Of a DNA stretch of 64,000 nucleotides, positions 18,148 through 64,000 are shown piece by piece. Under the pieces are notes generated by a model. The model saw nothing but the letters and a program-made list of their open reading frames with translations. It was not told the DNA's origin and ran no database searches. The stretch comes from Tenuifilaceae bacterium CYCD (GTDB taxonomy: Bacteria; Bacteroidota; Bacteroidia; Bacteroidales; Tenuifilaceae), in the NCBI GenBank assembly GCA_036322835.1, contig AP027304.1, forward strand, positions 2,728,001 through 2,792,000. Reading direction: 5' to 3'. The first letter of the stretch is position 1. Each line of letters begins with the position of its first letter. Made by a program: the position numbers and the translations under genes.

Positions 18148-18164
18148 AAAACATATACTGAGAA

Positions 18165-18290
18165 ATGGTTTAGCCTACTGGGGCTGATGATGCAGATACC
18201 AATGTTTCTAGTATTTTAGTATGGTTTTAACGTTGGATAACGCCGCTGGCAGTTAACTCCCCAGCAGTCCAAACCACCGACTGTTAATAA
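18165..18290 (+). other. Solitary attC-like site (degenerate)
   Basis: Reading on the plus strand, this matches the reverse complement of the attC sites at 41130 and 44310: GGTTTAGCCTACTGGGG, then CTGATGATGCAGATAC, then ACTCCCCAGCAGTCCAAACC and a GTTAATA core. The left core box is degraded (no clear YYYAAC before GGTTTAG), so the site may no longer recombine from that side. Confidence 0.65.
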
Positions 18291-18395
18291 CAAGGCAAAA
18301 AACAGACTACAAATGCAACATCATAATATGAAGTAGGAAATGTTAAATTTGAGCATTTCTCTTTACAACAAGAACAGTTAATTAAACCTTTCGGT

Positions 18396-41001: not shown

Positions 41002-41129
41002 CATAAATCCGGAAGGTTGTTTGAAGAAAAATGTTGTCTACTTGCAGTTTTCGGGAAGGACTTTTTTGCGTTTTCTCTTAGTGTCGATTATTGGCTTAAA
41101 GTGTATAAATATCGGTCTCTTAGCCTTGC

Positions 41130-48239: not shown

Positions 48240-48292
48240 TGCTTTTCAAATTTAAAGTTAATACTAATTTATGTTTTCTCTTGTCCAATGAA

Positions 48293-48422
48293 CGCTAACG
48301 GTTGAGTGTATGTGCCGTAAGGGATTGCGGAGTAGTTTCCTGTCCACCGAAACGAAAGTTTGAGCGGGCTACAATGCTTGAATACCCACTGAAACCCTTA
48401 TGGCATATACACTTTGTTGGCG
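48293..48422 (-). other. Integron attC site 7
   Basis: 130 bp, a different subfamily: arms GTGTATGTGCCGTAAGGG / CCCTTATGGCATATACAC, centre ATTGCGGAGTAG. Left core AACGCTAAC complements site 6. Right core is GTTGGCG, a variant with G at the second purine, matched by CGCCAAC in site 8. Confidence 0.87.
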
Positions 48423-48571
48423 TTTCGTTGTTTATTTTTCTCGTCATTTTCTTTCATTTTTGCCGCATCGTTTTTGTCTGCCGTGCGTTTGGGTAGGCAA
48501 GCTCTTTTGCAGGTTTTGGTTTTAGCGGGGGATTGTGTGACCTGCAAATGTGCTTGACTACGAAGCGTTGG

Positions 48572-49309
48572 CTATGTTGTTTTATAATTTTCCACAAATG
48601 TTTCAAACAAGCGTTTCATGGCTTCATAGTTTTTTCTTTTCGATAGAGTTGTAATTTCAAAAGTCAGTAAATGTTCAATGTCTTTCTGTGAGAGATAATT
48701 ACCATGTATTAGGATTTCTCGAATCTGGTCTAAATCATCGTAATATTGTCGTTTTTCGGGGTCGTGATTTTCGATTAAGAATTTTGAAAGGCATTCTTCA
48801 ATTATTGGATTTGAATGACTTTGTATCTCGTCAATATTCCTGATTACTTCACTGATTTTTGTGTCAATAATCGCTTTATCATTGAAGAAAATCCTGCCAT
48901 TGCTATGAGCAGCGTCATTTCTTGATTTTACGCTGGCTGTATAATTTCCGATTTGTGAATTATCGCAACCTACAAGTTTTAAGAATCGTATGAAATTGCT
49001 TTCTCCTAACTCAACAAAGGCAAAAGGAGTTGTAGCATTGCAAAGGAGTTTTTCAAAATCCTTGCTAAAACCGACCATTGCTTTTTCAAAATCTGTTTTT
49101 CGGTTCTCTTTAATCTGCCAGACCTCGAAATACACAAAGCTCATGTACAGCATGTGAAAAGCAATAAAGGCAAAAGGATATTTTGCATTATTGTAATTAC
49201 TCTCAAAACTTTCCCAAAGGAAATTTATATAATCTTGCTCGTCTCTGGTTTTATAGGAGTTCGGCAAATATTCCAGTATGTCGATTGCATTTGCCATTAT
49301 TCTTCCCAA
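48572..49309 (-). CDS. Cassette gene: HEPN-like protein in a type I restriction-modification operon
   Basis: A 245-residue helical soluble protein. The motif SRNDAAHSNGR (R130-x4-H135) matches the RxxxxH active site of HEPN ribonucleases, set between long helices as in that fold. It overlaps the end of the methyltransferase/specificity gene by 13 bp and is the last gene of the operon. HEPN proteins often act as RNA-cutting toxins or abortive-infection effectors. In this position it could be a second line of defence if restriction fails, but this is inference. The family (MAE_18760-like or other) cannot be settled by eye. Confidence 0.68.
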   Translation of the reverse strand: MGRIMANAIDILEYLPNSYKTRDEQDYINFLWESFESNYNNAKYPFAFIAFHMLYMSFVYFEVWQIKENRKTDFEKAMVGFSKDFEKLLCNATTPFAFVELGESNFIRFLKLVGCDNSQIGNYTASVKSRNDAAHSNGRIFFNDKAIIDTKISEVIRNIDEIQSHSNPIIEECLSKFLIENHDPEKRQYYDDLDQIREILIHGNYLSQKDIEHLLTFEITTLSKRKNYEAMKRLFETFVENYKTT

Positions 49310-51801
49310 AGTTTATTGATTTCGTCTTTTATTTTTTGCTCGTATATTTTAACCAGTTCTTTGGTTGCGTTGACCAGTTGTTGCTCTTTTTCGATTTGAA
49401 CTACAATTGAATTTTGTTCTTCAACTGGAATTATGGGTATTTGAACAATTTCAACTGTTTTAAAACTCAGAGCCGGCATAGCACCACCAGCAGTAATTCT
49501 TTTAAAATAAGATTGAACATATTCTGAAGTAAGATAATAGTAAAGAAAATCATTTGTGATATTCTCAATTGGTGTAACTTTAAAAAGATTGTTTGCTAAT
49601 ACACCGTCAAAACCTCTTCCTACATATCCAGCAGACGCACCATATCTTACAACTACCACCTCATTTTTTCTAATATATTTATTTTTCGATAGTTCCTTTG
49701 GTATATATCTAAAATCATCAGAATTTTGAGTGTAATTCTCAATTCTCAAAAAAACATCATAATCCTCAACATATTCTTTACTCTGTAATTCCAAATCAAC
49801 CTGAATGCCTTGTGAAAAATCACATACAGAACCCAACTCCACCATTTCCCATTCGGGTTTAATATCAATTTGGGGTTTGTAATTTTCTACTACCTGCTTT
49901 GCGCCGGCTATAATTTTCTCGAATTTCGCTATTTTATTTAATATCTCATATTGAATTGAAAGCGGAGGTAATGGGATTCTAAAAGAGTATAAGAATTCAG
50001 CTTTCAAGTTTTTAATATTTGCTCCGGCAATAATATTATTTAAATGATTATTAAATCTTTCACCTCTTAAGTTTTGAAATAGAAATTCTGGAAGTACTTG
50101 TTCGTTACATCTAATTGCACCCATGAAGCCCCCAAAATAATAATCAATATCTTGTTCTACAAAGGCTGTTTTCCCAATATGTTCAGCACTTCCTGAAGCG
50201 GTGCAAATAAAAATATCTTTTGCTTTCAATTTTTGTTTATCGGAAAGCTTAAGGTTTTTTGAAATTAATTTTACATCATTAAAATCAATATTTCCACTAT
50301 CCAATTTAATATTATTGGCTCTTAACACCTTGTACCCATCTTCTTCTACCTCATCTTCTTTTGAATATGTCACCCCTCTGATTAATTCACATAATTCGCT
50401 TAAAGAAACCATTTCAAATTTGCCATTATGCCTGTGATTTGTTTCTTTGTATCTATCCCCGTTAAGATTAAAATCTCCGTTTTCAATTATTCTGCTTTTT
50501 TCAACAACAATTGAATTAAAAGGCAAATCTTCAAAATTTATCAACGAAAAATCATTGTTGCGAATAGCTGTAATGTATTGATTTATAAAATTTGTAGCAT
50601 CAGGCAAATCACTTGTACTAAGTTCTTTTCTTTGCGCCCCCAGACTGTACCCATCATTCTCAATTTTTGCGAAAAGGATTTTATCGTTTTTTTTTGCAAG
50701 TGTCTTATCTAATAAAAGAATGGAAGTTTTCACTCCGCTGTATGGCTGGAAAAGACCGGCTGGCAGACTTACAACTCCATATAGAAAGTTTTTTTCAACC
50801 AGCAATTTCCGCAATGCTTTGTAAGCTGTGGCACTTTGAAAAATAATACCTTCGGGAACAATCACTGCTGCACGTCCGGTTGTCGGGTTAATATGTTCCA
50901 TAATGTAATCCACAAAAAGCACCTCACTACGGTTTGCCTGCATGGCAAATTTCTTATGCGGGCGGATACCTCCTTTTGGTGTCATAAATGGCGGATTAGC
51001 CATGATAATGTCAAAAGTATCACCCCAACGGTCGGTGCTGGTCAGGGTATCGTATTCGTATATTTTTGGTGTGGTAAAACCATGCAGATACATATTTACC
51101 AAACTCAAACGCACCATTTCGGAAGAAATGTCGTAACCCACAAAGTTGTTGATTAGCTTTTTTCGTTCATCGGGCGTAAGTAAATCGCCTTTGTTCTTTT
51201 TTGTGTTTTCGTTCAGTATGTGTTTGTACGAAGAAATTAAAAAGCCGGCAGTGCCACAGGCAGGGTCGCAAATGCTTTCATCTTTTTTGGGCTGCATAAT
51301 GGCAACCATAAAATCAATGATATGGCGGGGTGTACGAAATTGACCTGCATCACCCTGACTGCCTAAAACTGATAACAGGTACTCAAAAGCATCGCCCAGT
51401 TTTTCGCTGTGGTCGTAATGAAATTCATTGATAACTTTCAGAAACATTTTCAAGGTTTCCGGGTCGCGGTAAGGCAGATATGCGTTTTTAAAAATATCTC
51501 TGAAAAGTTGTGGTATGTTTGGGTTTTGGTTGAGTTTTACAATGGCTTCTCCGTAGAGTGCCAACATTTCAAAACCGCCCAATTTCGGGTCGAATATTTT
51601 TGTCCAGCTGTATTTTTCGTAATCGCCTGAAAAAAAAGTAGCTTCTCCACCAAATTCCATTGCTTCCTTATCCATGTCGTCCATGAATTTGTATATCATG
51701 GCAATGGTAATTTGCTCCACCTGACTTTGTGGGTTTGGCAACTTTCCTACTAAAATGTCTCTTGCAGTATCAATCCTGCGTTTTGTTTCTTGGTCTAACA
51801 T
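49297..51801 (-). CDS. Type I restriction-modification methyltransferase fused to specificity subunit (HsdM-HsdS)
   Basis: 834 residues. The N-terminal half is an N6-adenine methyltransferase (about 1-430) with the SAM motif DPACGTAG at 179-186 and catalytic NPPF at 269-272. The C-terminal half is an HsdS-like specificity region with two target-recognition domains (about 455-630 and 650-834). Each begins with a (F/W)EMVxLxxxCx motif and ends in a helix carrying (L/I)xxQxxI. The single protein should both bind the two-part target and methylate adenine. It starts 1 bp after the HsdR stop, in an R-MS-HEPN operon. Confidence 0.9.
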   Translation of the reverse strand: MLDQETKRRIDTARDILVGKLPNPQSQVEQITIAMIYKFMDDMDKEAMEFGGEATFFSGDYEKYSWTKIFDPKLGGFEMLALYGEAIVKLNQNPNIPQLFRDIFKNAYLPYRDPETLKMFLKVINEFHYDHSEKLGDAFEYLLSVLGSQGDAGQFRTPRHIIDFMVAIMQPKKDESICDPACGTAGFLISSYKHILNENTKKNKGDLLTPDERKKLINNFVGYDISSEMVRLSLVNMYLHGFTTPKIYEYDTLTSTDRWGDTFDIIMANPPFMTPKGGIRPHKKFAMQANRSEVLFVDYIMEHINPTTGRAAVIVPEGIIFQSATAYKALRKLLVEKNFLYGVVSLPAGLFQPYSGVKTSILLLDKTLAKKNDKILFAKIENDGYSLGAQRKELSTSDLPDATNFINQYITAIRNNDFSLINFEDLPFNSIVVEKSRIIENGDFNLNGDRYKETNHRHNGKFEMVSLSELCELIRGVTYSKEDEVEEDGYKVLRANNIKLDSGNIDFNDVKLISKNLKLSDKQKLKAKDIFICTASGSAEHIGKTAFVEQDIDYYFGGFMGAIRCNEQVLPEFLFQNLRGERFNNHLNNIIAGANIKNLKAEFLYSFRIPLPPLSIQYEILNKIAKFEKIIAGAKQVVENYKPQIDIKPEWEMVELGSVCDFSQGIQVDLELQSKEYVEDYDVFLRIENYTQNSDDFRYIPKELSKNKYIRKNEVVVVRYGASAGYVGRGFDGVLANNLFKVTPIENITNDFLYYYLTSEYVQSYFKRITAGGAMPALSFKTVEIVQIPIIPVEEQNSIVVQIEKEQQLVNATKELVKIYEQKIKDEINKLWEE

Positions 51802-54333
51802 TTATGCAACAAATTTATTTAGTGATACATTATCTTTTATGTACTCAGGTATCGCAAATCGCAATTCTGGCGGCAACTTTCTGAACACATCACCATTTGG
51901 ATTGGTGTTTAATAATGCATATTTTTTATTTTCAATTATGTCTCTGAACTCAGAGTCGGTAATGTAACTTTTAAAATAATCCCTTGCGAAAGTGAAGTAT
52001 TCCTCAGGGGGCAAATAACGGCTATCAAATTTTTCAAATTCCTCGTCAAGCAACTCGTCCTTAGATTTAAAATATGGAATAAAGCCAAAGATTTTTTCAA
52101 TGATTTCCCGCAATGATAAACGCCTGTCAATTTTTATGGCATTCCGCAATTTGCTTATATTGTAATACTCCTCCGGCTTATCAAAAATTTGACTGATAAT
52201 GTATTGTTCTATTGCATCAAAATCCTTTTGCTGAACTAATTCCTTAATTTTGTCATCCTCTTTTACTTTATCTTCGAATTTCTCAAAATACATTCGGTCA
52301 ATCTTCATTCCTTCAAGTCCAATTTCATTGACTGTAAAGGTTTTTAAAGGGTCGTGTCTTGTGCTGTCGTATTCGTTAACAACATAACCGCCTCCGCCAC
52401 CGCCTTCGGTTGAAGTTCCTTTTGGAGGTAACTTTAAAACTTCATCGTAATTGAATTTTTCCTCAAAATACTCGCAGTTTGCAAAGAAGTCAAAAAGTTT
52501 AAACCTCGACTTTTGCAGGTTTTCTTCCGGTATGTTTTCGATTAAACTTTTATCTTTCAAAACCTCTTTATTCGCAAAATTGAATTTTCTTGTTCCTCTG
52601 CCTTTGATTTGAATAAAGTCGGTTGGTGAGAAAATTGGTCGCATCAAACACACATTTAAAATATCAGGGCAATCATAACCTGTTGTCATCATGCCAACTG
52701 TAACACATACACGGGTTTTGCTTGTCTGGTATAAATCGTGAAAGTTGCCTTTGCCGCCTAAACGATTGTTAGTAAAGTTAATCGTCAATTGCTGTGCATC
52801 TGGTATCCAAGAGGTAACTTGCATTGCAAAATCAGATTGATATTTATCCGGAAACATCTTGTCGGCAAATTCATTCAGAATTTGCGTGATTTTAGCAGCG
52901 TGATTTTGACTTACACAAAATAAAATTGACTTGCCAATTTCACCAGAAATTGGGTCTTTATAAGAGTTCTCTAAAAATGTTTTGCAAAAAATGCGGTTCG
53001 TGTTTTCGGAAAACAATTTCTTTTCAAAATCACGTTGAGAAAAAGTTGTTGAAGTTTCTTCGCCATCATCGTCAGTTATTTCAACCGTATAACCCTCATC
53101 GCTTAAAAGCTGTGTGGTGATTTCTGTTCGTGCATCCACAACACAAGGATTTACCAGAAAACCATCTATCACGCCATGTAAAAGACTGTACTGATAAGTC
53201 GGCTTTCCATCTTCACAACCAAAGGTCGTGTAGGTGTCTAAAAGCATTCTTCTTTCTAACTCTCTTGGGTCTTTTTCGCTTAATTCTCCGGCATTTATTT
53301 TCTTTAAATAGTCTTTTGGCGTAGCTGTTAATCCTAACTTGTAACCAATAAAATATTCAAAAACAGCTCTGCTGTTACCTCCGATACTTCTGTGTGCTTC
53401 ATCAGAAATTACGAGGTCAAAGTCAGTGGGAGAGAAAATTCGTTTGTATTTGTTTTTGAAAAGAAATGATTGCACTGTCGAAACAACAATTTCTGCTTGT
53501 CGCCAGTCATCCTTGTTTTCTTTGTAAATACTGCATTTATAATCAGTTCTTAGATATTCCTTAAAAGCTTTATCAGCCTGGTCTTCTAATTCCAAACGGT
53601 CAACCAAAAATAAAACCCGTCTTGCGTTTCCTGTACGCAAAAACAATTTTATAACTGCTGCTGAAGTTAAAGTTTTGCCAGTACCGGTTGCCATCTCAAA
53701 TAAAAAACGGTCTTTACCTGATTTTACTTCTTCCTGTATCCGTTCTATGGCTCTAACCTGATACTTACGCAAGAACCTTAATTTATTTTCTTCAATAAAT
53801 GCACTGCGTTGTGATTCATCGATATATCTCGGGTCGCTGGCGTAGTCTGGTTTTTGAGTTTTTACAACGTAATCTTCTTTTACGGTTTCATTTACTAATG
53901 CCTCAGCATTTGGCTTAAATTCAGTATATCCGATTACGGTCTCAGGTTTTGGAAATGTTGCAATAATGTTTGGATTTCCTCTCTGTAAATCCCAGAAGTA
54001 ATGCAAATTACCATTTGAAAGAATTATGAATCTACAGTTTTGAGCTTGTGCGTATTTTCTGGCTTGTTCCTTTGCAAAGAGCGGGTTTATTTCTTCTTTC
54101 TTTGCTTCTAAAACAATGAAAGGAAAACCTTTGTCATCAAGTAACAGATAGTCAATGAAGCCATTTTTCGTTTTTTCAAAATCTTCCCCGAATTCATCTA
54201 ATTCGGTTTGAGTTAATTTGGTTTTATTCTCAAGTACAATGTTGGCTTTGCCTTCTTTAGAGTCAAAGAAACGCCATCCTGCTTCTTCAAGCAGTTTATT
54301 AATTTTTATTCTTGCTTTAGCTTCTTTTGACAT
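51802..54333 (-). CDS. hsdR: Type I restriction endonuclease subunit R (EcoEI-like)
   Basis: 843 residues. The N-terminal nuclease domain has D61 (FIDYLLL) and E76-A-K78 (VLEAKKE). The superfamily 2 helicase core has Walker A ATGTGKT at 215-221, DEAH at 311-314 and TATP, with later motifs RPIFSPTDFIQIKGRGTRKF. A C-terminal helical domain of about 200 residues resembles EcoEI_R_C and binds the methyltransferase. It is the ATP-dependent translocating and cutting subunit. It is first in the operon, with about 245 bp to the cassette boundary upstream, which may hold its own promoter. Confidence 0.92.
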   Translation of the reverse strand: MSKEAKARIKINKLLEEAGWRFFDSKEGKANIVLENKTKLTQTELDEFGEDFEKTKNGFIDYLLLDDKGFPFIVLEAKKEEINPLFAKEQARKYAQAQNCRFIILSNGNLHYFWDLQRGNPNIIATFPKPETVIGYTEFKPNAEALVNETVKEDYVVKTQKPDYASDPRYIDESQRSAFIEENKLRFLRKYQVRAIERIQEEVKSGKDRFLFEMATGTGKTLTSAAVIKLFLRTGNARRVLFLVDRLELEDQADKAFKEYLRTDYKCSIYKENKDDWRQAEIVVSTVQSFLFKNKYKRIFSPTDFDLVISDEAHRSIGGNSRAVFEYFIGYKLGLTATPKDYLKKINAGELSEKDPRELERRMLLDTYTTFGCEDGKPTYQYSLLHGVIDGFLVNPCVVDARTEITTQLLSDEGYTVEITDDDGEETSTTFSQRDFEKKLFSENTNRIFCKTFLENSYKDPISGEIGKSILFCVSQNHAAKITQILNEFADKMFPDKYQSDFAMQVTSWIPDAQQLTINFTNNRLGGKGNFHDLYQTSKTRVCVTVGMMTTGYDCPDILNVCLMRPIFSPTDFIQIKGRGTRKFNFANKEVLKDKSLIENIPEENLQKSRFKLFDFFANCEYFEEKFNYDEVLKLPPKGTSTEGGGGGGYVVNEYDSTRHDPLKTFTVNEIGLEGMKIDRMYFEKFEDKVKEDDKIKELVQQKDFDAIEQYIISQIFDKPEEYYNISKLRNAIKIDRRLSLREIIEKIFGFIPYFKSKDELLDEEFEKFDSRYLPPEEYFTFARDYFKSYITDSEFRDIIENKKYALLNTNPNGDVFRKLPPELRFAIPEYIKDNVSLNKFVA

Positions 54334-54579
54334 TACAATTCTGTTCTATTTTTATAATCACAAAGTTAATTTTAAATTCTCAATACCATTTTTCAAATAA
54401 GTCGCTGTCTTTCAGTAGAGCGTAGGCAAAATGAAGGCTCTTTTGGCTGCGAAGCGGTCGCCCGTGCGTTGGGGCAGCCAAATGTGCCTTTATGTGCGAT
54501 GGGTTTCCGTTTTCTTTGTCTTTATGCAGCAAAAATTCTTTTATCATTCTGTCGTCTGTTTCTGTCTTTTTACAATGAA

Positions 54580-54710
54580 CGCCAACGGCCGGCGGTATGA
54601 AATCGTTGGGGATTGCGGGCTACTTTCCTATCAAGTTACACCGAACTTGATGCGTGGAAGAATGCTTGATTAACCACTTAAACCCCAATGTTTTATACCG
54701 CGTGTTAGCA
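54580..54710 (-). other. Integron attC site 8
   Basis: 131 bp, subfamily of site 7: arms GGCGGTATGAAATCGTTGGGG / CCCCAATGTTTTATACCGC. Left core CGCCAAC pairs with the variant right core GTTGGCG of site 7. Right core is GTTAGCAGC. Confidence 0.88.
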
Positions 54711-54750
54711 GCTGAACTTATTCATATTCATTATTTTACAGTCTTTCAAA

Positions 54751-55344
54751 TTATAAGCAGTCAGGTTTCGATACTGATAAAATTGAGAATAATTGTTCTT
54801 TGTCAAATTCTGAAACTCCGTTGTCGGTTGCCATTTGTAAAGCTTCTTGATATGTCGGTTTTGTGTTGAAGAATTTGCGATTGAAATAGTCATATTTGAT
54901 ATACGACCAGAAATAATAATAAATTCCTTTAGGTTCAATCATCAAAGCGGCATTGATATACTCTTCAATTTTGTCAATGGTAGGGCGTTGTGTCAGAAAT
55001 GCTTTATTGCCTTGTAATAAACAGATTGCTGCATAAAAGAATGTTTCTGAATTGTCAAAATTATCTTCAATTGCTTTTTCAAAAGCCGAAAGAGCTTTGT
55101 CATATAATTTCAATTTCAAATAACACATTGCAATTGAAGTGTTCAAGTCTTTATTGTCGGGATTATCTGAAAGAGCTTTACGATATTCGTTTGCGTATTT
55201 GTTTACCTCTGGCATCGGCATTGAATACACACTATTAAAAGTCGATATTACTATCGGTTTATGACAAAATCTACATTCCGTTTGTCCCGTTGTAACTCTG
55301 TCACCACAACCGGGGCAAGTTAATTCTACTATTTGTTGAGCCAT
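54751..55344 (-). CDS. Cassette gene: zinc-ribbon TPR protein
   Basis: 197 residues. An N-terminal zinc ribbon has C10-x2-C13 (CPGCG) and C24-x2-C27 (CRFCHK). Two or three TPR units follow (about 45-190), for example KDLNTSIAMCYLKLKLYDKALSAFEKAI. No membrane segment. It is the last gene of a five-gene cassette, 18 bp after its neighbour. Zinc-ribbon proteins next to SPFH (YdjI-like) proteins occur in envelope-stress operons such as Bacillus ydjFGHI. A similar scaffold role is possible but not shown. Confidence 0.75.
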   Translation of the reverse strand: MAQQIVELTCPGCGDRVTTGQTECRFCHKPIVISTFNSVYSMPMPEVNKYANEYRKALSDNPDNKDLNTSIAMCYLKLKLYDKALSAFEKAIEDNFDNSETFFYAAICLLQGNKAFLTQRPTIDKIEEYINAALMIEPKGIYYYFWSYIKYDYFNRKFFNTKPTYQEALQMATDNGVSEFDKEQLFSILSVSKPDCL

Positions 55345-55361
55345 ATTTACAAATCTGTTTT

Positions 55362-56042
55362 TTAGTTTAAAAGTTTTAATTGTCGGTTTCTTTCGTTAGC
55401 CAAATTGCAAATTTTATCAACTATCAGTTGAATGTCGTCAAGTTTGTTTTTCTGCATTGCTTTTTCAAGATTGTCAATTTCACTAATTACATCTTGCTCA
55501 ATTGATTTTACATTGTAAGAAGATTTAACTTGACTGCTATGTATCAAATCATAAGCCTTTTCAACCTTCTTACGAATAGTATTGTCTGATATTTGTTTTA
55601 ACAAAGCATCAAGTCTTGAAGAAGATTCTTTCACATATTTTAATTCTACTTCATGCCTTTCAATATTATCTGCTGTATGTTCATTTGCAATCAGGTTTGT
55701 AAGCAATAGAATTGCGAAAATTGCAGCAATTGTAACTTGCACTAATAATGCAACTGTTATACTTTCAGGTGAAATTGCTATAAAAACAACACCAACTATT
55801 AGTGCCAAAAAAAAGTAACTTGTTGTAATCACAAACAATGGACGACCATAATCAGCCGAAACGCTTCCCTTTCTCACAAAAGAAGGCGTTATTAGAAGCA
55901 TTAAATATGCTAAGTGAATAGAGGCGTATGAAATCCAAACTGAAGCAGGTTGGTCTGTGCCTTTAAGCAGAAAGAAATAAAGGTTAAAAACAATCAAAAA
56001 GATTGAATCCAACAAGTACCAAAAAATTTTATTTTTTTTCAT
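55362..56042 (-). CDS. Cassette gene: four-helix membrane protein with C-terminal coiled coil
   Basis: 226 residues. Four N-terminal membrane helices (10-30, 38-58, 70-95, 100-120) are followed by a cytoplasmic helical tail of about 110 residues with coiled-coil character (NIERHEVELKYVKESSSRLDALLKQISDN). I do not recognise it. It lies between the SPFH gene (14 bp upstream) and the zinc-ribbon gene (18 bp downstream), so it is probably part of the same complex, perhaps its membrane anchor. Confidence 0.68.
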   Translation of the reverse strand: MKKNKIFWYLLDSIFLIVFNLYFFLLKGTDQPASVWISYASIHLAYLMLLITPSFVRKGSVSADYGRPLFVITTSYFFLALIVGVVFIAISPESITVALLVQVTIAAIFAILLLTNLIANEHTADNIERHEVELKYVKESSSRLDALLKQISDNTIRKKVEKAYDLIHSSQVKSSYNVKSIEQDVISEIDNLEKAMQKNKLDDIQLIVDKICNLANERNRQLKLLN

Positions 56043-56056
56043 AATTGCCTCCTTTC

Positions 56057-57139
56057 TTACATTTTACTTAAAATTTCCTTTTTCTTTTCATCAAACTCCT
56101 CTTGTGTAATTGCACCAATGTCAAGCATTTCTTTAAGTTGTTTGATTTTTTCAACAGGGCTTACATTTTGAGGTTGTTGACTTTGAGAAGGATTAAAAAC
56201 TTGTTGAGCCATACCGCCAAACACTCCACCAGCAGCCAAACCCATTCCTAAACCTGCGCCTGCCGTGGCAACGCCACCGCCTTCGTTATTTGCAATACCT
56301 TTAAGTATATCAACTTGTTGCTGTTTTGCCCAGTCTTCGCCCAATATTCCCATAACAGATTTGTCTGCTTGTGCATTTCTCATTTTTGCAATGGCATCCA
56401 TTCCAATTTCATCATAACGCCTTCTTAGTTCATCATCGTCAATATTGATTGCTGCAATTGAAAACTTAACTAATTTTAATCCATAATCATTAAGCGTTTC
56501 CTGCATGAATGGACTTATAGCATCTGCAAATTCATCTAATCGGGCTTCAATGCCTAAAAGTTCTTGCGTTGATTCGTTTGCTGCTCTTGTAATGCTTGAC
56601 TTTATTTTGCTTTGAAATTCATTAATGAAATATTTGCTAAGTTCTTCCTGAAATTGAAAAGGCACATTATTACCTATCAGTTTTTCAAGAAACTTAACAG
56701 GGTTGTCTATTTGAACTTTATATGCCCCTCTTGCTTTAAGTTTGGTAGCAATTCCAAGCATTTTGTCACGCACCTGAATTGGAGAATCTGTACCCCACAA
56801 AATTTCTTCGGAGTGAGCTTTGCGAATAAAATAAACAACACAATTAAATGTACTTATGCCACCAGTAAAAGCGTTTCGTAAACGACTTATAAAAGGATAG
56901 TTTTCAGTTGATAGTTTGTAAGTTCCATTTTCAAAGGTTTGTTCAACATTACCACCTTTTATAAAAATGGCTTCTTCACCAGGCATAACAATAAGAGTAG
57001 AATTTGTATTAAAATCTTCCTCTGGTTGTCGCCAAATTAAAAGTTCACCGGGGCCAGAATTTTTGATTACATCAGCCCAGTGCTTTTTACCGCCTGTAAA
57101 GGCGGTTTCGTTTGGATTTTTGTTATTGAAAAGTCCCAT
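56057..57139 (-). CDS. Cassette gene: SPFH/YdjI-like protein with C-terminal SHOCT domain
   Basis: 360 residues. The N-terminus (KKHWADVIKNSGPGELLIWRQPEEDF) and the SPFH core (about 40-250; VMPGEEAIFIKGGNVEQTFENGTYKLST) match the virion-core-like YdjI branch of the band-7 superfamily. A glycine/alanine-rich segment with GMGLAAGGVFGGMAQQ (about 290-315) follows. The protein ends in a SHOCT motif (EKIKQLKEMLDIGAITQEEFDEKKKEIL). SPFH proteins build ring-like scaffolds on membranes; YdjI in Bacillus helps recruit PspA under membrane stress. It is central to a five-gene cassette, which has no pspA. Confidence 0.85.
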   Translation of the reverse strand: MGLFNNKNPNETAFTGGKKHWADVIKNSGPGELLIWRQPEEDFNTNSTLIVMPGEEAIFIKGGNVEQTFENGTYKLSTENYPFISRLRNAFTGGISTFNCVVYFIRKAHSEEILWGTDSPIQVRDKMLGIATKLKARGAYKVQIDNPVKFLEKLIGNNVPFQFQEELSKYFINEFQSKIKSSITRAANESTQELLGIEARLDEFADAISPFMQETLNDYGLKLVKFSIAAINIDDDELRRRYDEIGMDAIAKMRNAQADKSVMGILGEDWAKQQQVDILKGIANNEGGGVATAGAGLGMGLAAGGVFGGMAQQVFNPSQSQQPQNVSPVEKIKQLKEMLDIGAITQEEFDEKKKEILSKM

Positions 57140-57159
57140 GATTTTTTTGTTTAATAATT

Positions 57160-57621
57160 TTATGGTTTGTCAATTCCGTAAATACCACTACAAGTAATAA
57201 ATAAGCGAATGTAAATTTTCTTAAATGCTTTAACCATTCCATACTTATTTAAAACCATAATAGAATATTCTGAACAAGTTGGTTTTAATGTACATTTTCT
57301 TCTTTTTTCTTCCGATGCATAGTGCTGATATAGTTCTATAAAAAGAATAGAAAATCTTTTATAAAACATCAATAGCAATAGTACACTAATGATAAAGTGC
57401 AACGAAGTAAAATTGTAACTAAAACCAACAAATACGAGTATTTTAGCAACTAAATAAGTGATTAAAAGAGTTGCTAACTCTAAAACAACTATGTATTTCA
57501 TTGCTGTAATAATATTTGTCTTAGGTCTATTAATTTCTCTATTAACACAATAATTTATTAATGCTTCCAACTCGTATTTGTTTTGAGGTTTTTCCATTAT
57601 ACAATTACGATTTTTTCTCAC
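57160..57621 (-). CDS. Cassette gene: YidD-like membrane protein
   Basis: 153 residues. The C-terminal 60 residues match YidD, the membrane protein insertion efficiency factor: ELYQHYASEEKRRKCTLKPTCSEYSIMVLNKYG, with C110 and PTCSEYS at 114-120. An N-terminal extension of about 90 residues adds two membrane helices not present in ordinary YidD (about 70-85 residues). The conserved RCxP end is changed to a TCSGIYG stretch. It may have a role in this cassette's membrane module rather than in YidC-dependent insertion. An internal ATG (MEKPQ, near 57597) is a possible start. Confidence 0.72.
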   Translation of the reverse strand: MRKNRNCIMEKPQNKYELEALINYCVNREINRPKTNIITAMKYIVVLELATLLITYLVAKILVFVGFSYNFTSLHFIISVLLLLMFYKRFSILFIELYQHYASEEKRRKCTLKPTCSEYSIMVLNKYGMVKAFKKIYIRLFITCSGIYGIDKP

Positions 57622-58288
57622 GCAATTTTGCTTTCATTGCCTGAATTGCTCGTTCTGTATAGTCATTTTGTTCTAGAGAACAATAGAATTTGTCACCAGG
57701 AACAGTTAAAGCAAAACGATTTGAATCAATATTTTCTAATAATGATTTCTTTTGTTTTGGGTCCCAATACGGTGTTTCTACTGTGTCTGTACTTGTAGAG
57801 AAGTTCGTTATATCTTTATAGAAATACTCCTCAGTTGCAACTTTTTTGTCATCTTTATCAAAATGAATTGTATTCTGATACAAATACACTTGAGTAGAAG
57901 AGAAAAACAACCAAGAAACTTGATATGCAGAACTTCTCCAACTTCCATCTTTTCCTCTTTTAGCATAGCTTATATTATTACCATAAGCCCAACCTTCAAA
58001 ATGAACAGGGTCGATTTCTTTTAATTCAGATTCATCTAAACCAATTTTGTCTAATGCTTTCTTTTTAAAATCTTGCTTAGAAATTGTTGACTTAACTAAT
58101 TCGTCATATTGAACATCAGACATTGTTTTTGATAAACAACCCTCTACAGCAAAATAACGAATAACTTTTTTCTGTTCATCATTACGATTCTTGTAACGAT
58201 TTTTCACTTCTGAAGGGTCAGACATTGAACTACTTTTATAAAAATATACTCCGACACCAATTAAAATAAGAACAATTATAAATCCCAT
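57605..58288 (-). CDS. Cassette gene: membrane-anchored hypothetical protein
   Basis: 227 residues. One N-terminal helix (MGFIIVLILIGVGVYFY) anchors a soluble domain with two parts: a helical portion (35-105) and a beta-rich portion (120-220; WGSWRSSAYQVSWLFFSSTQVYLYQ-type strands). I do not recognise it. It is the first gene of the five-gene cassette and overlaps the YidD-like gene by 17 bp. About 260 bp upstream to the cassette core are non-coding and could hold a promoter. Confidence 0.65.
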   Translation of the reverse strand: MGFIIVLILIGVGVYFYKSSSMSDPSEVKNRYKNRNDEQKKVIRYFAVEGCLSKTMSDVQYDELVKSTISKQDFKKKALDKIGLDESELKEIDPVHFEGWAYGNNISYAKRGKDGSWRSSAYQVSWLFFSSTQVYLYQNTIHFDKDDKKVATEEYFYKDITNFSTSTDTVETPYWDPKQKKSLLENIDSNRFALTVPGDKFYCSLEQNDYTERAIQAMKAKLREKKS

Positions 58289-58547
58289 AATATTAAAATT
58301 TTATTTGCCTACTCTGTTTAATTATAAGGTTTTCGGCTTTCCCTATATTTTATTAATTTAAACTTTTAATTTACATCTTGATGTTGTAGTTTATCCTGTA
58401 TTCATAATGGTTTGATTTAAAATTTGGGTTCTATAACGAATGTCTGAAAAAGAGTAAGAACCTTTAACTCTTGTTTTTTATCTTTGTTTCTTCTTTTCTT
58501 CATTTTTCAATTTTGTTTTCAAGCTGTACGTCGTTTCTTAGTTTTGC

Positions 58548-58680
58548 TGCTAACGTTTCCGTGGCAAGAAATGTTGGGGAGTTAACGACCGAACATTTAT
58601 CCCACGTTAAACTGATACTAAAGTACTAAAAACTTGCTTATCTGCGCACCAGCCCCAATATTTTTTGCCACGTGTTACAG
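58548..58680 (-). other. Integron attC site 9
   Basis: 133 bp, arms CGTGGCAAGAAATGTTGGGG / CCCCAATATTTTTTGCCACG. Left core GCTGCTAAC complements site 8. Right core is GTTACAGGC, matched by GCCTGTAAC in site 10. The stop codon of the adjacent decayed gene lies inside the right core. Confidence 0.87.
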
Positions 58681-59301
58681 GCTGTGGTTTTTTATCAATT
58701 GTTCTTTCAATAATCCATCAATGAATTTAATGTATTTCAAATATTCAGACAGTAAAATATTTCCGTCCATTATTGTTTCGTTTGTCTGATATTTAATTTT
58801 AAGTTTATCACTATCGTATTGAATGTTAAATACTGAGGTTTCTAATCCAAAAATCAAATCTTGAATTTCCTTTTTTGAAAACAAGGATTCAATTTCTTTT
58901 TTTCGATTTGTTTTGTATCCAATAGTTTTAAAGAATTCAAAATGGTCATCATTCCGTTGCTTACTAAATATTTTCTCTAAAAATCCTTTTCTCCATATAT
59001 AAAGGAAGAATTCATCTTGCTTTTCAAGTTCTGCTTCTATTCTCAAATTACTTAATCCAAATTTGTCTCTTTCGGCAGGTGATTGTCTAAATGTCGAATG
59101 AAGTTCAATATTAATTCCTTGGTACTCTTTTAATATTCTGAGATGAAAGTAATCGGAGAGTATAATTCCCGCGTTCTGGGTTTGTTGCGTTATTTTGAAT
59201 ACGCCATCAATCTCAGTCGCAACTTTCTGCCAAAAATCTCTTGGGTCAATATGATATCGAGGATTCTGTTTCCATTTTTCTTAAAAGCTTCGTAACACCA
59301 T
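58675..59301 (-). pseudogene. Cassette gene inactivated by an early in-frame stop
   Basis: From an ATG at 59301, right beside the core of attC site 10, the frame reads MVLRSF then TAA at codon 7. The same frame then continues open for about 200 codons (EKWKQNPRYHIDPRDFWQKV... to ...LIKNHSL) and ends inside the core of site 9. No other ATG occurs in that stretch; an internal TTG at 59046 would give only 123 residues. The full product would be about 208 residues, soluble, unrecognised. Either the gene is dead or it starts at a rare codon. Confidence 0.62.
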
Positions 59302-59304
59302 TGC

Positions 59305-59439
59305 CTGTAACGTTCCTGTGGTTTGGCATGCTGTGGAGTTGCTTGCAGCACGCTTATCCGCCGTTAAGAACTTAGTTAAAGGTAGCAATAATTCTGCATC
59401 TGCCAAATCAGCCACAGTAGGCTAAACCACATGTTGGCA
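59305..59439 (-). other. Integron attC site 10
   Basis: 135 bp, arms TGTGGTTTGGCATGCTGTGG / CCACAGTAGGCTAAACCACA. Left core CCTGTAAC complements site 9. Right core GTTGGCAGC does not pair with its own left core, but pairs with the lone GCTGCCAAC at 60680. Confidence 0.88.
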
Positions 59440-59443
59440 GCAG

Positions 59444-60619
59444 TTATTCTTTATGTATTTCAATTTGTTTAATAATACCACGATTGTCTTTAAGCGTTAA
59501 TGTTGCTTTATCCTTATCTTTAAGTTTTAGACCCAATAAATTACAAATATCCCAATTTTCGTAATTTGTGCTGTCTATAGCTATAATTTTATCACCTAGG
59601 TTGATTTGACCTTTCAATTCCCCCCAAACAACTCCAACGGTTATTTGACTGTTAAATACAGTTGGGCTTACAGGCCATTTTTTCTCTTCTAAATTTATTT
59701 CGCTTTCAAAGGGTTCAAAGTAAAAGTTCTTATTCAAGTAATCTAATGTCACCGTTCCATATTTTAGAAGTTCTGAACCAATACTTGATTGTACTATACT
59801 AGATGTTTCAACTATGGTATTTTCAAATTTCCCTTTGTTGATTTGTAATAGAGGTATTCTCAGCCTGAACATTTCTGTATTATTTTCTGCACCGAATAAA
59901 CCAAAAGAATTCGCCCCAAAACCTGTTGATATCGTTTCGAAAGGTTTATTCTTTTCACCCTTAATTATATTATTCATCATACCGTTAGAGAGCGAAAAGA
60001 AAGCACCATTTCCGGTATCAAAGATTACTTCCAGAGGAATTTTATTAATTGATATTTGAATAAATGGATAGCTAGATTTAATAAGTTTCAGTTTTGAGAT
60101 ATTATCCTTACTTAAAGGTAACTTCTTTTGATTATCGGTTATGGTTACTGTATGATTTTTGGAAGAAATTTGAACGATTGAATTTCTTAACATATTACTT
60201 CCAATTATTCCTTCCACATTTAAGCATTTAAACCAATCAGGAGAGGATTGAATGACAGATGCTGGAATATCATTAAAAATAATACTGCCTAGTTTCAAGT
60301 CATTGAGAGATACAATCTTTAAAGTGTCTTTGTTTTTAAACATATCTACAACTATCTGCTTATTCATCAAAGCTGGGTTGATTTCTCTGAACAAACTTTC
60401 GCTGATTAAAGTGGTAGATCCTGTATCGAAAAGAAATTTTCTTTTTTTGCCGTTTATCTCAACGTTAATAAAAATCTTGTCGTTATTAGTTTCATAAGGA
60501 ATAACGTCATAATAATCTTTGTGAGTTGCACCTCCTTGGTTAAAGGAAAATTCTTGTCCAAAGCTGTAATGAAAATTAAAAATTCCAATCGCTATAAGTA
60601 ATAAGTTTAATCTTTTCAT
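59444..60619 (-). CDS. Cassette gene: secreted retropepsin-like aspartic protease with PDZ-like C-terminus
   Basis: 391 residues with a signal peptide (LLLIAIGIFNFHYSFGQ). Two aspartic protease motifs are present: FDTGST near residue 64-69 and FDTGNG near 200, each after a hydrophobic strand, so one chain could form a pepsin-like two-lobed site. The C-terminal ~75 residues (VGVVWGELKGQINLGDKIIAIDSTNYENW) resemble a PDZ domain. Proteins of this kind are exported and cleave unknown targets. It is the only gene of the cassette nearest the attI-like end, the most strongly expressed position if a Pc promoter works. Confidence 0.82.
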   Translation of the reverse strand: MKRLNLLLIAIGIFNFHYSFGQEFSFNQGGATHKDYYDVIPYETNNDKIFINVEINGKKRKFLFDTGSTTLISESLFREINPALMNKQIVVDMFKNKDTLKIVSLNDLKLGSIIFNDIPASVIQSSPDWFKCLNVEGIIGSNMLRNSIVQISSKNHTVTITDNQKKLPLSKDNISKLKLIKSSYPFIQISINKIPLEVIFDTGNGAFFSLSNGMMNNIIKGEKNKPFETISTGFGANSFGLFGAENNTEMFRLRIPLLQINKGKFENTIVETSSIVQSSIGSELLKYGTVTLDYLNKNFYFEPFESEINLEEKKWPVSPTVFNSQITVGVVWGELKGQINLGDKIIAIDSTNYENWDICNLLGLKLKDKDKATLTLKDNRGIIKQIEIHKE

Positions 60620-60679
60620 TTGTTTGTTATTATTGACTTTCTCATTAGATAAATAACTTCCTTAAATGCTATCATAATT

Positions 60680-60688
60680 GCTGCCAAC
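60680..60688 (-). other. attI-like end of the cassette array (lone core box)
   Basis: GCTGCCAAC on the plus strand is the exact partner of the right core of site 10. On the minus strand it reads GTTGGCAGC, a GTTRRRY core at the start of the first cassette. There is no palindrome around it, unlike the ten attC sites; this asymmetry is expected for attI. No integron integrase gene is found next to it. Confidence 0.6.
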
Positions 60689-60782
60689 TTGCTTATATAT
60701 ACCATTTTTTAGTATCAATACACCCATTTTGGGATGTATTGTACAGTTTTATAGTATAATATTTATTTTAAAATTAGGTATA

Positions 60783-60813
60783 AAACTAAGTATATTTTTT
60801 TGTGGATCAAAAT
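60783..60813 (-). promoter_or_regulatory. Candidate cassette promoter (Pc-like)
   Basis: On the minus strand, TTTG (60810-60813) is followed after exactly 19 bp by TAGTTTTA (60783-60790). This matches the Bacteroidota consensus TTTG-N19-TAnnTTTG at all defined positions but one. It points into the array about 95 bp upstream of the lone core box. The region is AT-rich, so chance matches are possible. Confidence 0.45.
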
Positions 60814-61006
60814 TTTACTTGCGTGTTTAGGTGGTTACACAGTTATTTTTTTTCGTAGTTACTCGCTTTCGGTCGTCGGTTTTTGGTTGTTTGTCATTAG
60901 ATCAGTTAATTATTTGATTGCTAGGTTGAACCAGATGCTTTAATTTCTTAAATTTATTTATACAAAATGTAACGTATTATTAGTTAATCACTTAAAAATT
61001 TAAAGT

Positions 61007-61963
61007 ATGACATCAAAACAGACCGCAAAGCACAGTATGTACATAACGGTAGTTGAGTACTTAACAATTTACCTAGAGGTTGTAGGTCGGCTTCCAAATC
61101 TCTCTGCATCCCTCACCGAGCTGAGGAGTTACGTTACGGGGATCGAGGAACTTTCGTCGCAGCATGTGTTTAGCAAGACCGGCATATCGGCAGCTAAACG
61201 AAGCCAAAAGAATGCGCTGGCCAAGATGCTGGCCAACCTGATTATCCGGCTTAGGGCCTTTGCCAAGCTGGAGAATAACCAGGTGCTCCGCGATGAGCTG
61301 AAGCACTCCGAGAGCACCCTTAAGGTTATGCCCGATACCACCCTCTACGGCTACGCGCAGGGTATATATAGCCGCATAGACGAGAATATCAGGGTGTTGG
61401 ATACCTACGGCATAACCGCCGAGTCCCAAGCTGCGCTCCAGCAGGCTATGGGTAGCTTCTTTTCATCTATACCCAAGCCCCGGCTCAGCATAGCGGACAA
61501 GAAACAGATTACGGTGGACTTAGCGCGTTACTTCGACAACGCCGATGCTATCCTCGCAAATGTTGATACGGTGATGAAGATCATGAAGGAGGTTAACCCC
61601 AAGGTGTACAACGGGTACGTATCGTCGAGGAAGGTTGTTCATACCGGAAGCACCTCGTTAACGCTACGGGGTATAGTAACCGATTCGGCCACGGGAGATC
61701 CGGTTAAGGGAGTGCTGCTAAGCTTTAGCGCCATAGCCGACGATACCACGCTTAACACATCAACCAATGCCCTTATTGCCAGCAAGGAGGAGGTGCAGCT
61801 TACCAAGCGTACTGCCGATAAGGGTGGCTTTAACATTAAATCGTTGCCCGAGGGTATTTATAGCGTAAACGTTAAGAAGAACGGCTATAAGCCGCAGATT
61901 TTAACCCTGGCGGTGAACGATGGCGAGCTGAACGAACTGAATATTGAGATTGTTAAGAATTAA
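61007..61963 (+). CDS. Protein with helical N-terminus and CarboxypepD_reg-like C-terminus
   Basis: 318 residues, no signal peptide. The first ~200 residues are helical (VEYLTIYLEVVGRLPNLSASLTELRSYVTGIEELSSQHVF). The last ~95 form a carboxypeptidase-regulatory-like beta-sandwich (LRGIVTDSATGDPVKGVLLSF...GGFNIKSLPEGIYSVNVKKNGYKPQILTL). I do not recognise the N-terminal domain. The gene is clearly more GC-rich than the cassette genes to its left, marking the end of the array. It is divergent from the array and ends at a strong terminator. Confidence 0.75.
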   Translation: MTSKQTAKHSMYITVVEYLTIYLEVVGRLPNLSASLTELRSYVTGIEELSSQHVFSKTGISAAKRSQKNALAKMLANLIIRLRAFAKLENNQVLRDELKHSESTLKVMPDTTLYGYAQGIYSRIDENIRVLDTYGITAESQAALQQAMGSFFSSIPKPRLSIADKKQITVDLARYFDNADAILANVDTVMKIMKEVNPKVYNGYVSSRKVVHTGSTSLTLRGIVTDSATGDPVKGVLLSFSAIADDTTLNTSTNALIASKEEVQLTKRTADKGGFNIKSLPEGIYSVNVKKNGYKPQILTLAVNDGELNELNIEIVKN

Positions 61964-62309: not shown

Positions 62310-64000
62310 TTATTTTCTGATAAATATAAATTCACCCCCTTCGTCGCCCGCATTTTGTATTGTCCCGAATTGTGGCTCTGTTTGACTATTATTCATTACT
62401 GCGATTCTAAAACTCGCAAATAACTGGTCTGACGGTAAATATTTCTCTGTATTATTATCCAATCGTTTTACTAAATACTCTAAAAAGACACTTTTATCGG
62501 GTACTTCCTTTAAATTACCACTTGTCATTGCAGTTCTACTTGGTAATTTGTAGAGTGAGTTAATTGCTTGGCCAGCATCAGAAAAAGCGGATCTTGTTTT
62601 AAAGATACTCCCACTAAAGCAAGCATCAGCAATTAACAGCGTATGCTTTGTTTTAATGCTGCTCATGTAGTCACTAATTGTGCTATTCCTAATCCAAAAA
62701 GCAGTGCTGCTTTTCTTTGCATTTGAAGGTAACCAGTAACCAAGTTTTTTTTCTTCGTCCCACCAACCGTGTCCTGCATAGAAAACCAATAAGTTGTCGT
62801 TCTCGGTAATTTGATTGCTGATATTATCAAATGCCTCAATCATTTGAACATAGGTTGCATTTTTAATAAAGGTGACATTTTGGGGGTCGAATGAATATTC
62901 GGTTGTAAGCACATTGTATAGTTTTGTCGCATCGTTTATTGGTTCGTCTAATGAATTTATTGCAGGATCGCTGTAATTGTTATTCCCAATAATCAGGGCG
63001 TAATATTTTCCTGTTTGCAAATTACCCGAATTGTTTGTTTTACTACTTACGGCTACAGCATCATTTTGATTTGTTTGCCGTTCAATTACAAATGTTTCCG
63101 TTGCTGTATTTTGCTTAATATCTGTTGCTGTCACTGTAAATGAATTATCACCGTAAGCAAGTAAAACAGTTTTTGAAAAATTGCCCTGCTTATCAACACT
63201 TGCAGGTTCTCCGTTGATTGAAATCTCGTATATTCCGCTGGCATCAGTTGCTTGTCCGGTAATTGTTACTTGGTTTTGTTGCTCAACTGGTTTAAAGCCG
63301 CGTGAGATATTTGGATAATTTATTGTAATTATGGGTGCAATGTTATCCGATTGTATTACTTGTTGTTTACCCAGGTAAGAAACCTTTAAATAATCAATTT
63401 CAATAGAGTTGTAGTTTGCCAACATAAAACCTATTTGCTGAATAGGAATTAAATCGATTGATGCGTCAAAAATAAAATTTGCATTATAAAAGACATAAAT
63501 TTTACTCTTTACTTTACGAATTGTATAGGTGTTAAAATCGCCATAATCAATGGAGTAATCCAGATAGGTGTCCTTTGTGTATTTTGTATATGTACCATAA
63601 GGGCCACTCGAAAAACTATTGAAATTGCCTCCACCAATGGACAGCGTATTTGATGTGGAATATTTTTCTCCAAAGAATAGGATGATAACCGAATATATAT
63701 CCGAATAATTTAGTTTAGCCTTATACTCTATCTCAAAATCAGCATTTATATCTATTGCAACATCCTGATGTATTTCGTCCCAACCTATATTTTTGTCCTT
63801 ATTCCTTAAAATGTATTTATTATCATCAAAAGTCAATGAGTGCGTACTATTGTTTTCGATTATCCAATTATTTCTATTGTCATTAAAATCATCTACAAAT
63901 ATTCTTGTCTTTTGATTTTCGGTATAATCATAGTAGTTTGATTGAGGAAAACCGGTTAGTGAAATGAGGATAAATAAAAACCCAATAAGTACTCTGCTTT
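62310..64000 (-). CDS. Secreted caspase-like protein (N-terminus cut by window end)
   Basis: The reading frame continues upstream past any internal start to base 64000, where a signal peptide is visible (SRVLIGFLFILISLTGFPQSN). Only a few N-terminal residues are missing, and the length is about 563 residues. After the signal comes a concanavalin-like beta-sandwich (about 30-220), then an Ig-like segment (PIITINYPNISRGFKPVEQQNQVTITG). A C-terminal caspase domain follows, with His in FYAGHGWW and Cys in IADACFSGS. The sensing domain differs from the other three caspase-like proteins. Confidence 0.88.
   Translation of the reverse strand, partial: SRVLIGFLFILISLTGFPQSNYYDYTENQKTRIFVDDFNDNRNNWIIENNSTHSLTFDDNKYILRNKDKNIGWDEIHQDVAIDINADFEIEYKAKLNYSDIYSVIILFFGEKYSTSNTLSIGGGNFNSFSSGPYGTYTKYTKDTYLDYSIDYGDFNTYTIRKVKSKIYVFYNANFIFDASIDLIPIQQIGFMLANYNSIEIDYLKVSYLGKQQVIQSDNIAPIITINYPNISRGFKPVEQQNQVTITGQATDASGIYEISINGEPASVDKQGNFSKTVLLAYGDNSFTVTATDIKQNTATETFVIERQTNQNDAVAVSSKTNNSGNLQTGKYYALIIGNNNYSDPAINSLDEPINDATKLYNVLTTEYSFDPQNVTFIKNATYVQMIEAFDNISNQITENDNLLVFYAGHGWWDEEKKLGYWLPSNAKKSSTAFWIRNSTISDYMSSIKTKHTLLIADACFSGSIFKTRSAFSDAGQAINSLYKLPSRTAMTSGNLKEVPDKSVFLEYLVKRLDNNTEKYLPSDQLFASFRIAVMNNSQTEPQFGTIQNAGDEGGEFIFIRK

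Follow-up and report, generated by a model that had tools for sequence, protein, structure and literature searches.

The window (the whole 64-kb stretch of DNA analysed) contains an array of ten attC sites, which is preceded by a lone core sequence at position 60680 with no integrase gene nearby. None of the seven matches to PF00589 in the genome falls inside the window. The question raised by this locus is what kind of site the lone core belongs to, and which recombinase could have delivered cassettes to it.

Homology of the lone core region to attI

The 9-mer GCTGCCAAC at 60680-60688 was found twice in the 64-kb window, there and reversed at 59433, where it belongs to the R'' box of attC 1 (reverse strand of 59433-59442). 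Read in the direction of the cassette genes, the lone core GTTGGCAGCA (60688-60679) agreed at 10/10 positions with R'' of attC 1 (reverse complement TGCTGCCAAC), and the pairing with the last right core of the array claimed in the first-pass annotation was thus borne out. That annotation had also seen no attC palindrome around the core. With the filters turned off, the attC covariance model gave a partial match of 5.5 bits at 60680 (E 0.18 in 1 kb) and a best match of 7.5 bits over 60300-61300, whereas the scores of the ten true attC sites were 104-147 bits.

The assignment of the site as attI goes beyond the mere absence of a palindrome because it is based on homology to the attI located behind an integrase gene elsewhere in the genome (primary attI, see below). 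When the genome was searched with the primary attI, the window site was the second best match (90% identity over 83 bp, E 1.7e-26). The match at 2788682-2788764 corresponds to window positions 60682-60764, and the lone core ends this attI-like sequence of about 85 bp. Judged by this homology, the 60680 site is a second attI, heading an array of ten cassettes with its own candidate Pc, as the attI-like appearance of the core had suggested. The site has the following features:

60679-60688, minus: attI core GTTGGCAGCA; probable crossover between G and TT; 10/10 match with R'' of attC 1
60679-60764, minus: satellite attI; 83 bp shared at 90% identity with the primary attI (G000:C1:1574678-1574767); aligned with the other copies
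60719-60738, minus: central inverted repeat of attI, ACATCCCAAAATGGGTGT / TACATCCCAAAATGGGTGTA, recognized from the sequence; a similar repeat is at the same place in the attI of several relatives

The cassette array of the window

The ten attC sites are about 145 bp each and can be aligned end to end. RNAalifold predicted 19 base pairs, 15 of which show changes on both sides. The array lies entirely on the minus strand, its ten attC sites as well as its cassette genes, in agreement with the polarity proposed earlier, from 60.7 kb toward 41 kb. In the list below, bit scores are those of the covariance model.

59444-60619, minus: cassette 1 gene, retropepsin-like aspartyl protease domain (PF13975/PF13650)
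59299-59445, minus: attC 1, 130.8 bits, covarying stem
58542-58686, minus: attC 2, 126.4 bits
54751-58288, minus: genes of cassette 3 (4.0 kb, 54574-58554), five co-oriented genes (YidD, SPFH/Band 7 with SHOCT, TPR protein, two unknown)
54574-54716, minus: attC 3, 105.8 bits
48572-54333, minus: genes of cassette 4 (6.3 kb, 48287-54586), type I restriction-modification (HsdR, fused HsdM-HsdS, third protein)
48287-48428, minus: attC 4, 103.8 bits
46991-47132, minus: attC 5, 121.9 bits
45259-45402, minus: attC 6, 109.7 bits
44304-44449, minus: attC 7, 146.6 bits
42742-42887, minus: attC 8, 117.8 bits
41962-42108, minus: attC 9, 130.7 bits
41124-41269, minus: attC 10, last in the array, 137.4 bits
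39712-40935, minus: Mutator-family transposase (PF00872) at the distal end of the array

The cores bounding the two long cassettes agree, both in cassette 3 (GTTAGCAGC and GCTGCTAAC) and in cassette 4 (GTTGGCGTT and AACGCCAAC). The size of cassette 4, 6.3 kb, is unusual for a cassette, and the five genes of cassette 3 possibly constitute an undescribed operon. A DUF805b RNA motif (RF02914, 39.7 bits) was detected ahead of the first gene of cassette 3 (58306-58346, minus strand); it was the sole significant match of the Rfam search, which found no family for the attC repeats. No partner of the right core of attC 10, GTTATGGGC, was found within the 64-kb window, and the array seems to be cut short beside the transposase (41020-41123 plus 39712-40935).

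A single attC (104 bits) is located at 18150-18295 on the plus strand, opposite to the main array. Its R'' box is decayed (CTGAGA instead of xTAAC), and no recognizable attI precedes it.

The candidate Pc and the flanking gene

Upstream of this attI, two further features were distinguished:

60781-60811, minus: candidate Pc, TTTG-N19-TAGTTTTA, found in the sequence, with comparative support from relatives
61007-61963, plus: flanking gene, carboxypeptidase-regulatory domain (PF13620), 50% GC; not a recombinase, outside the system

The promoter candidate facing the array was found where it had been proposed, at 60811-60781 on the minus strand. Transcription is predicted to start close to 60774, which agrees with the 60776 given previously. 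TTTG followed by TAnnTTTg is the promoter consensus of Bacteroidetes. In relatives, TTTG lies in the last codons of the integrase gene (motif SPFDDL) and is followed after 17-21 bases by TAnnTTTg. This arrangement was present at the end of the integrase gene in 17/61 loci and on the opposite strand in 0/61, with a frequency of 0.7% in Markov controls. The window candidate agrees with the motif of the relatives in place and spacing, and TAGTTTTA also precedes two other attI copies of the genome (at 3141316 and 2836031), the -33 box being poor at both. The comparison supports the candidate Pc, which would act as a promoter for the array.

The place where intI would be expected is occupied by the carboxypeptidase-regulatory-domain gene, in keeping with the unrelated, GC-richer gene recognized earlier. 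A caspase-domain protein (PF00656) that also contains a Glucodextran_B domain is encoded at 62310-63836 (minus strand), beside the array and outside it.

A patch-less integrase at the head of the main array

A tyrosine recombinase gene was found 1.21 Mb from the window site, at G000:C1:1574784-1575911 (minus strand). The main array follows immediately, the distance from the gene being 0.1 kb to the primary attI and 1 kb to the first attC of that array. The encoded protein is the only member of its family in the genome and also the most IntI-like of its recombinases. A genome-wide search for a recombinase with the IntI patch had been suggested; none of the proteins reached the IntI cut-off. With the IntI profile TIGR02249 the integrase gave 196.8 bits in two stretches, below the curated cut-off of 265, whereas it exceeded the curated cut-off of NF040815 (XerA-like tyrosine recombinase/integron integrase; 223 bits, cut-off 220).

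In a two-part alignment with VchIntIA (2A3V) there were 26 integrase residues where IntI has 68, indicating that the patch is missing. The distance between the GKG box and the H-x-L-R-H box is 66 residues in the integrase and 107 in 12/12 true IntI proteins of the phylum; the missing segment amounts to about 41 residues (I2, near patch III). The integrase is not an IntI. Moreover, its gene is on the cassette strand with attI behind the stop codon, and not divergent as expected of intI. In a tree with IntI and Xer sequences the family stood apart from IntI, with weak support (57/96) and long branches.

The AlphaFold2 model, built with 48 aligned relatives, consists of a normal tyrosine recombinase and a confidently predicted N-terminal domain of about 75 residues. 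The closest folds were archaeal XerA, then VchIntIA. For the N-terminal domain, the Pfam HARP model matched 2/24 family members (best E 4.7e-4, weak), a profile search of the PDB matched 4o66 (E 0.014, weak) and Foldseek ranked 4o66 first (E 0.025, weak), followed by XPB. These weak but concordant matches are suggestive of a resemblance to the HARP substrate-recognition domain of SMARCAL1. HARP domains bind forked DNA. By analogy, the HARP-like domain may read the folded attC, as the patch of IntI does in classical integrons.

Cassette logic and attC features in the genome

The attC covariance model gave 59 matches in the genome at E<=0.1, 57 of them full-length. The main array contains 37 sites (1524150-1573802) and the window array 10; smaller groups are near 3142114-3159269, 1765901-1766893, 2746150, 2637751 and 2837149. 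In the two large arrays 40/45 neighbouring cores were equal at 6/6 variable bases, as against 2% of non-neighbours. In the window array all neighbouring cores were equal (9/9, or 10/10 with the attI core), and mismatched pairs occurred in the main array, at its distal end.

The cores consist of GTTR plus variable bases (e.g. GTTGGCA, GTTAGCG). Nearly all keep GTTR, and they do not follow GTTRRRY. An A.C mismatch in the attC stem is conserved in 45/47 sites with clear arms; on the other strand it is T.G. The bottom strand was predicted to fold more stably at 47/57 sites (DNA parameters, Wilcoxon p 1.7e-7). We infer that this strand bias parallels the use of the bottom strand in classical integrons, by means of a feature other than extrahelical bases.

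BLAST comparison of the window with the main array detected no near-identical common cassette; there were only matches of about 70% over 190-200 bp, which is the size of attC. One cassette of the main array is present in two copies with 97% identity over 851 bp (1540273-1541119 and 1567100-1567946 of G000:C1), which hints at copying of cassettes.

Further attI copies and the possible origin of satellites

The primary attI is the 90-bp sequence between the stop codon of the integrase gene and the first main cassette. It ends in AAGTAAG^TTAGCAACC, the latter agreeing with R'' of the first main attC; the core is 93 bp behind the stop codon and heads the main array. Besides the primary and the window site, four attI-like copies were found. 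Three of them, at 3141316 (+), 2635693 (+) and 2836031 (+), each precede an attC group on the same strand. The core mirrors that of the first attC at 3141316 and 2836031, and does so at 5/6 positions at 2635693. Satellite attI platforms thus number at least four, with the window site among them, 1.21 Mb from the sole integrase of its family in the genome. The attC clusters at G000:C1:1765901 and at window position 18150 have no recognizable attI. The fourth copy (G000:C1:3861732-3861808, plus strand, L063), with the core GTTAACCC, has no attC nearby and is apparently an empty platform.

A second satellite attI was found in another genus (L108). In genome G005, one attI is directly preceded by an integrase remnant, the last 39 amino acids with 64% identity; another has no integrase sequence ahead of it, but has TTTGATGAT, a promoter-like box, and is followed after 0.8 kb by a matching attC. 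Because of this intermediate, satellites may plausibly have come about when a duplicated integrase-attI block lost its integrase. When integrase remnants were searched for next to the window attI, no match exceeded chance level; a duplication confined to the promoter-attI block is therefore equally possible. No empty site was found among near relatives: when nine family members were searched, the flanking gene had no counterpart in eight, including both of the same genus, and the counterparts in G005 were only 30-54% identical.

In seven relatives (L081, L083, L084, L088, L089, L091 and L092) the central inverted repeat of attI, ACACCC-AAAA-GGRTGT, is flanked by two repeat or palindrome blocks. 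Their sequence varies between genomes, yet the two blocks within one genome are alike, as expected of binding sites that evolve together. Since attI diverges fast, its DNA was a poor query in relatives, and core matching was used with success instead.

Proposed action in trans and alternative explanations

Taken together, the segment 60679-60811 is very probably a satellite insertion platform, which belongs to an integron-like system and is served in trans by the only integrase of that system; this integrase, the primary attI and the main array are located around G000:C1:1574784-1575911. The first-pass annotation was correct in that no integrase is present locally, and the in trans option it offered is now supported by a cognate integrase elsewhere in the genome, whose action on the window site would proceed as follows. 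The integrase would bind double-stranded attI and the folded strand of attC, and cut between G and TT. Circular cassettes would be inserted at 60688/60687, so that new cassettes would become the first in the array and be transcribed from Pc toward 41 kb. With about 10% of the positions differing between the two attI sites, binding in trans is not certain.

It is also conceivable, though unlikely, that the locus is a dead relic, i.e. a formerly complete integron that lost its integrase and whose attI, Pc and cassettes are no longer recombined. The truncated integrase ahead of an attI in G005 illustrates such a loss, and the transposase at the distal end of the array would fit decay. However, no such remnant was found beside the window attI, the ten core pairs including that of attI are all perfect, whereas the main array has mismatched pairs at its distal end, and the cognate integrase is still present in the genome.

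A second alternative is that the array began with the insertion of a cassette at some unrelated place in the chromosome, without a true attI. The attG sites of IntI need only a short GWT-type sequence. Like attG, the window site would receive cassettes away from the integrase, but attG lacks homology to attI beyond such a sequence, whereas here 83 bp are shared with the primary attI at 90% identity; nor would attG have the central inverted repeat or, in the corresponding position, a promoter. Unless this similarity were an assembly error, it rules out an attG origin. Seeding of this kind is therefore highly improbable for the window array, even though some clusters of the genome are without recognizable attI, attG insertion is cited in PMC12901181, and CALINs have been proposed to originate from off-target insertions made by a distant integrase (PMC8618304).

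Finally, although classical IntI proteins above the cut-off occur in 105/395 sampled genomes of the phylum (among those listed, one in the class of the host and none in its order), a classical IntI acting on the window array, with the patch-less integrase as a bystander, can hardly be credited, as no protein of this genome reaches the IntI cut-off and the patch-less integrase is directly ahead of the main array and of the arrays of relatives, always co-oriented.

Comparison with known systems

The system resembles sedentary chromosomal integrons in several respects: a tyrosine recombinase adjoins attI, each cassette has one attC, the R''/R' core logic, the predicted GTT crossover and the covarying hairpins are the same, a candidate promoter faces the cassettes, and attI has upstream repeats. 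It differs from them in that the integrase has no IntI patch (65-66 versus 107 residues between the motifs) and carries a HARP-like N-terminal domain, that its gene reads toward the cassettes with attI behind the stop, that further attI sites lie away from the integrase, that the cores are not strictly GTTRRRY, and that the attC stem has a conserved A.C mismatch. By its sequence features the system appears to work like an integron, yet its integrase fails the feature that defines IntI.

In the integron of Treponema denticola the integrase and the cassettes read in the same direction, as here, but its integrase is reported to be an IntI that has the patch; we know of no satellite attI in this species. 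For the catalytic part of the integrase, XerA and the archaeal Xer-type recombinases (NF040815, 4a8e, 5hxy) were the best matches in sequence and fold; they start at residue ~94 and leave the HARP-like domain outside. Xer-type recombinases are not known to drive cassette arrays. Archaeal integrases have been described with the additional domain that defines IntI (PMC9668308).

With ten attC sites and no integron integrase nearby, the window array would be classed as a CALIN (at least two attC sites, no integron integrase nearby), but it differs from a CALIN in having an attI, together with a candidate Pc, at its head. The definition of a CALIN rests on attC sites only, and such arrays are regarded as degraded or as products of off-target insertion (PMC9024848, PMC8618304). 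In the classical theory the IntI patch and the extrahelical bases of attC have co-evolved, which poses a chicken-and-egg problem (Escudero 2016, PMC4792948). The combination of attC-like hairpins and cassette logic with a patch-less integrase makes the question of co-evolution testable.

Recurrence in the Bacteroidota

Among the 60 nearest genomes, attC and the integrase occurred together in 27 and were both absent from 18; attC was present without the integrase in 13, and the integrase without attC in two (Fisher p 2.5e-5). In the taxonomic family, attC sites were present in 25/27 genomes. The attI of relatives is located 85-121 bp behind the stop codon of the integrase gene, and in the nine genomes where integrase and first attC were readable, the core behind the integrase, at 85-118 bp from the stop, was identical to that of attC over six variable bases. 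The wider sample comprised 80 relatives from named genomes, with Flavobacterium, Pedobacter, Algoriphagus, Cyclobacterium and many MAGs among them. The attC sites around them were co-oriented with the integrase without exception (115/115), and in 27 of 37 loci a core located behind the integrase agreed at 6/6 positions with the first attC detected.

We consider it fairly likely that Bacteroidota have a second kind of integron, in which a patch-less, HARP-like recombinase reads attC hairpins, attI lies behind the integrase gene, and satellite attI-Pc platforms across the chromosome are served in trans; this kind would have arisen separately from IntI integrons or branched off before them. In the open literature (preprints and most subscription papers aside), no patch-less integrons or satellite attI sites were found reported for this phylum, nor was this family of integrases found linked to integrons. 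If the reading is right, integrons are common in a phylum for which the IntegronFinder 2.0 survey named one complete integron of Bacteroidetes (Salinibacter ruber) beyond integrase-only elements (PMC9024848). Searches relying on the IntI patch would miss the patch-less integrases. Satellite attI sites with promoters would let one integrase feed several expression platforms, and with cassettes of 4-6 kb, one of them containing a whole type I restriction system, defence operons are among the cargo.

The system is not confined to chromosomes: plasmid NZ_CP041688.1 of Chryseobacterium sp. SNU WT5 (L212) carries the integrase gene and five co-oriented attC matches. Several R' boxes of this plasmid run into GTTGGGAAAAATCGCCC, the sequence that also follows its attI.
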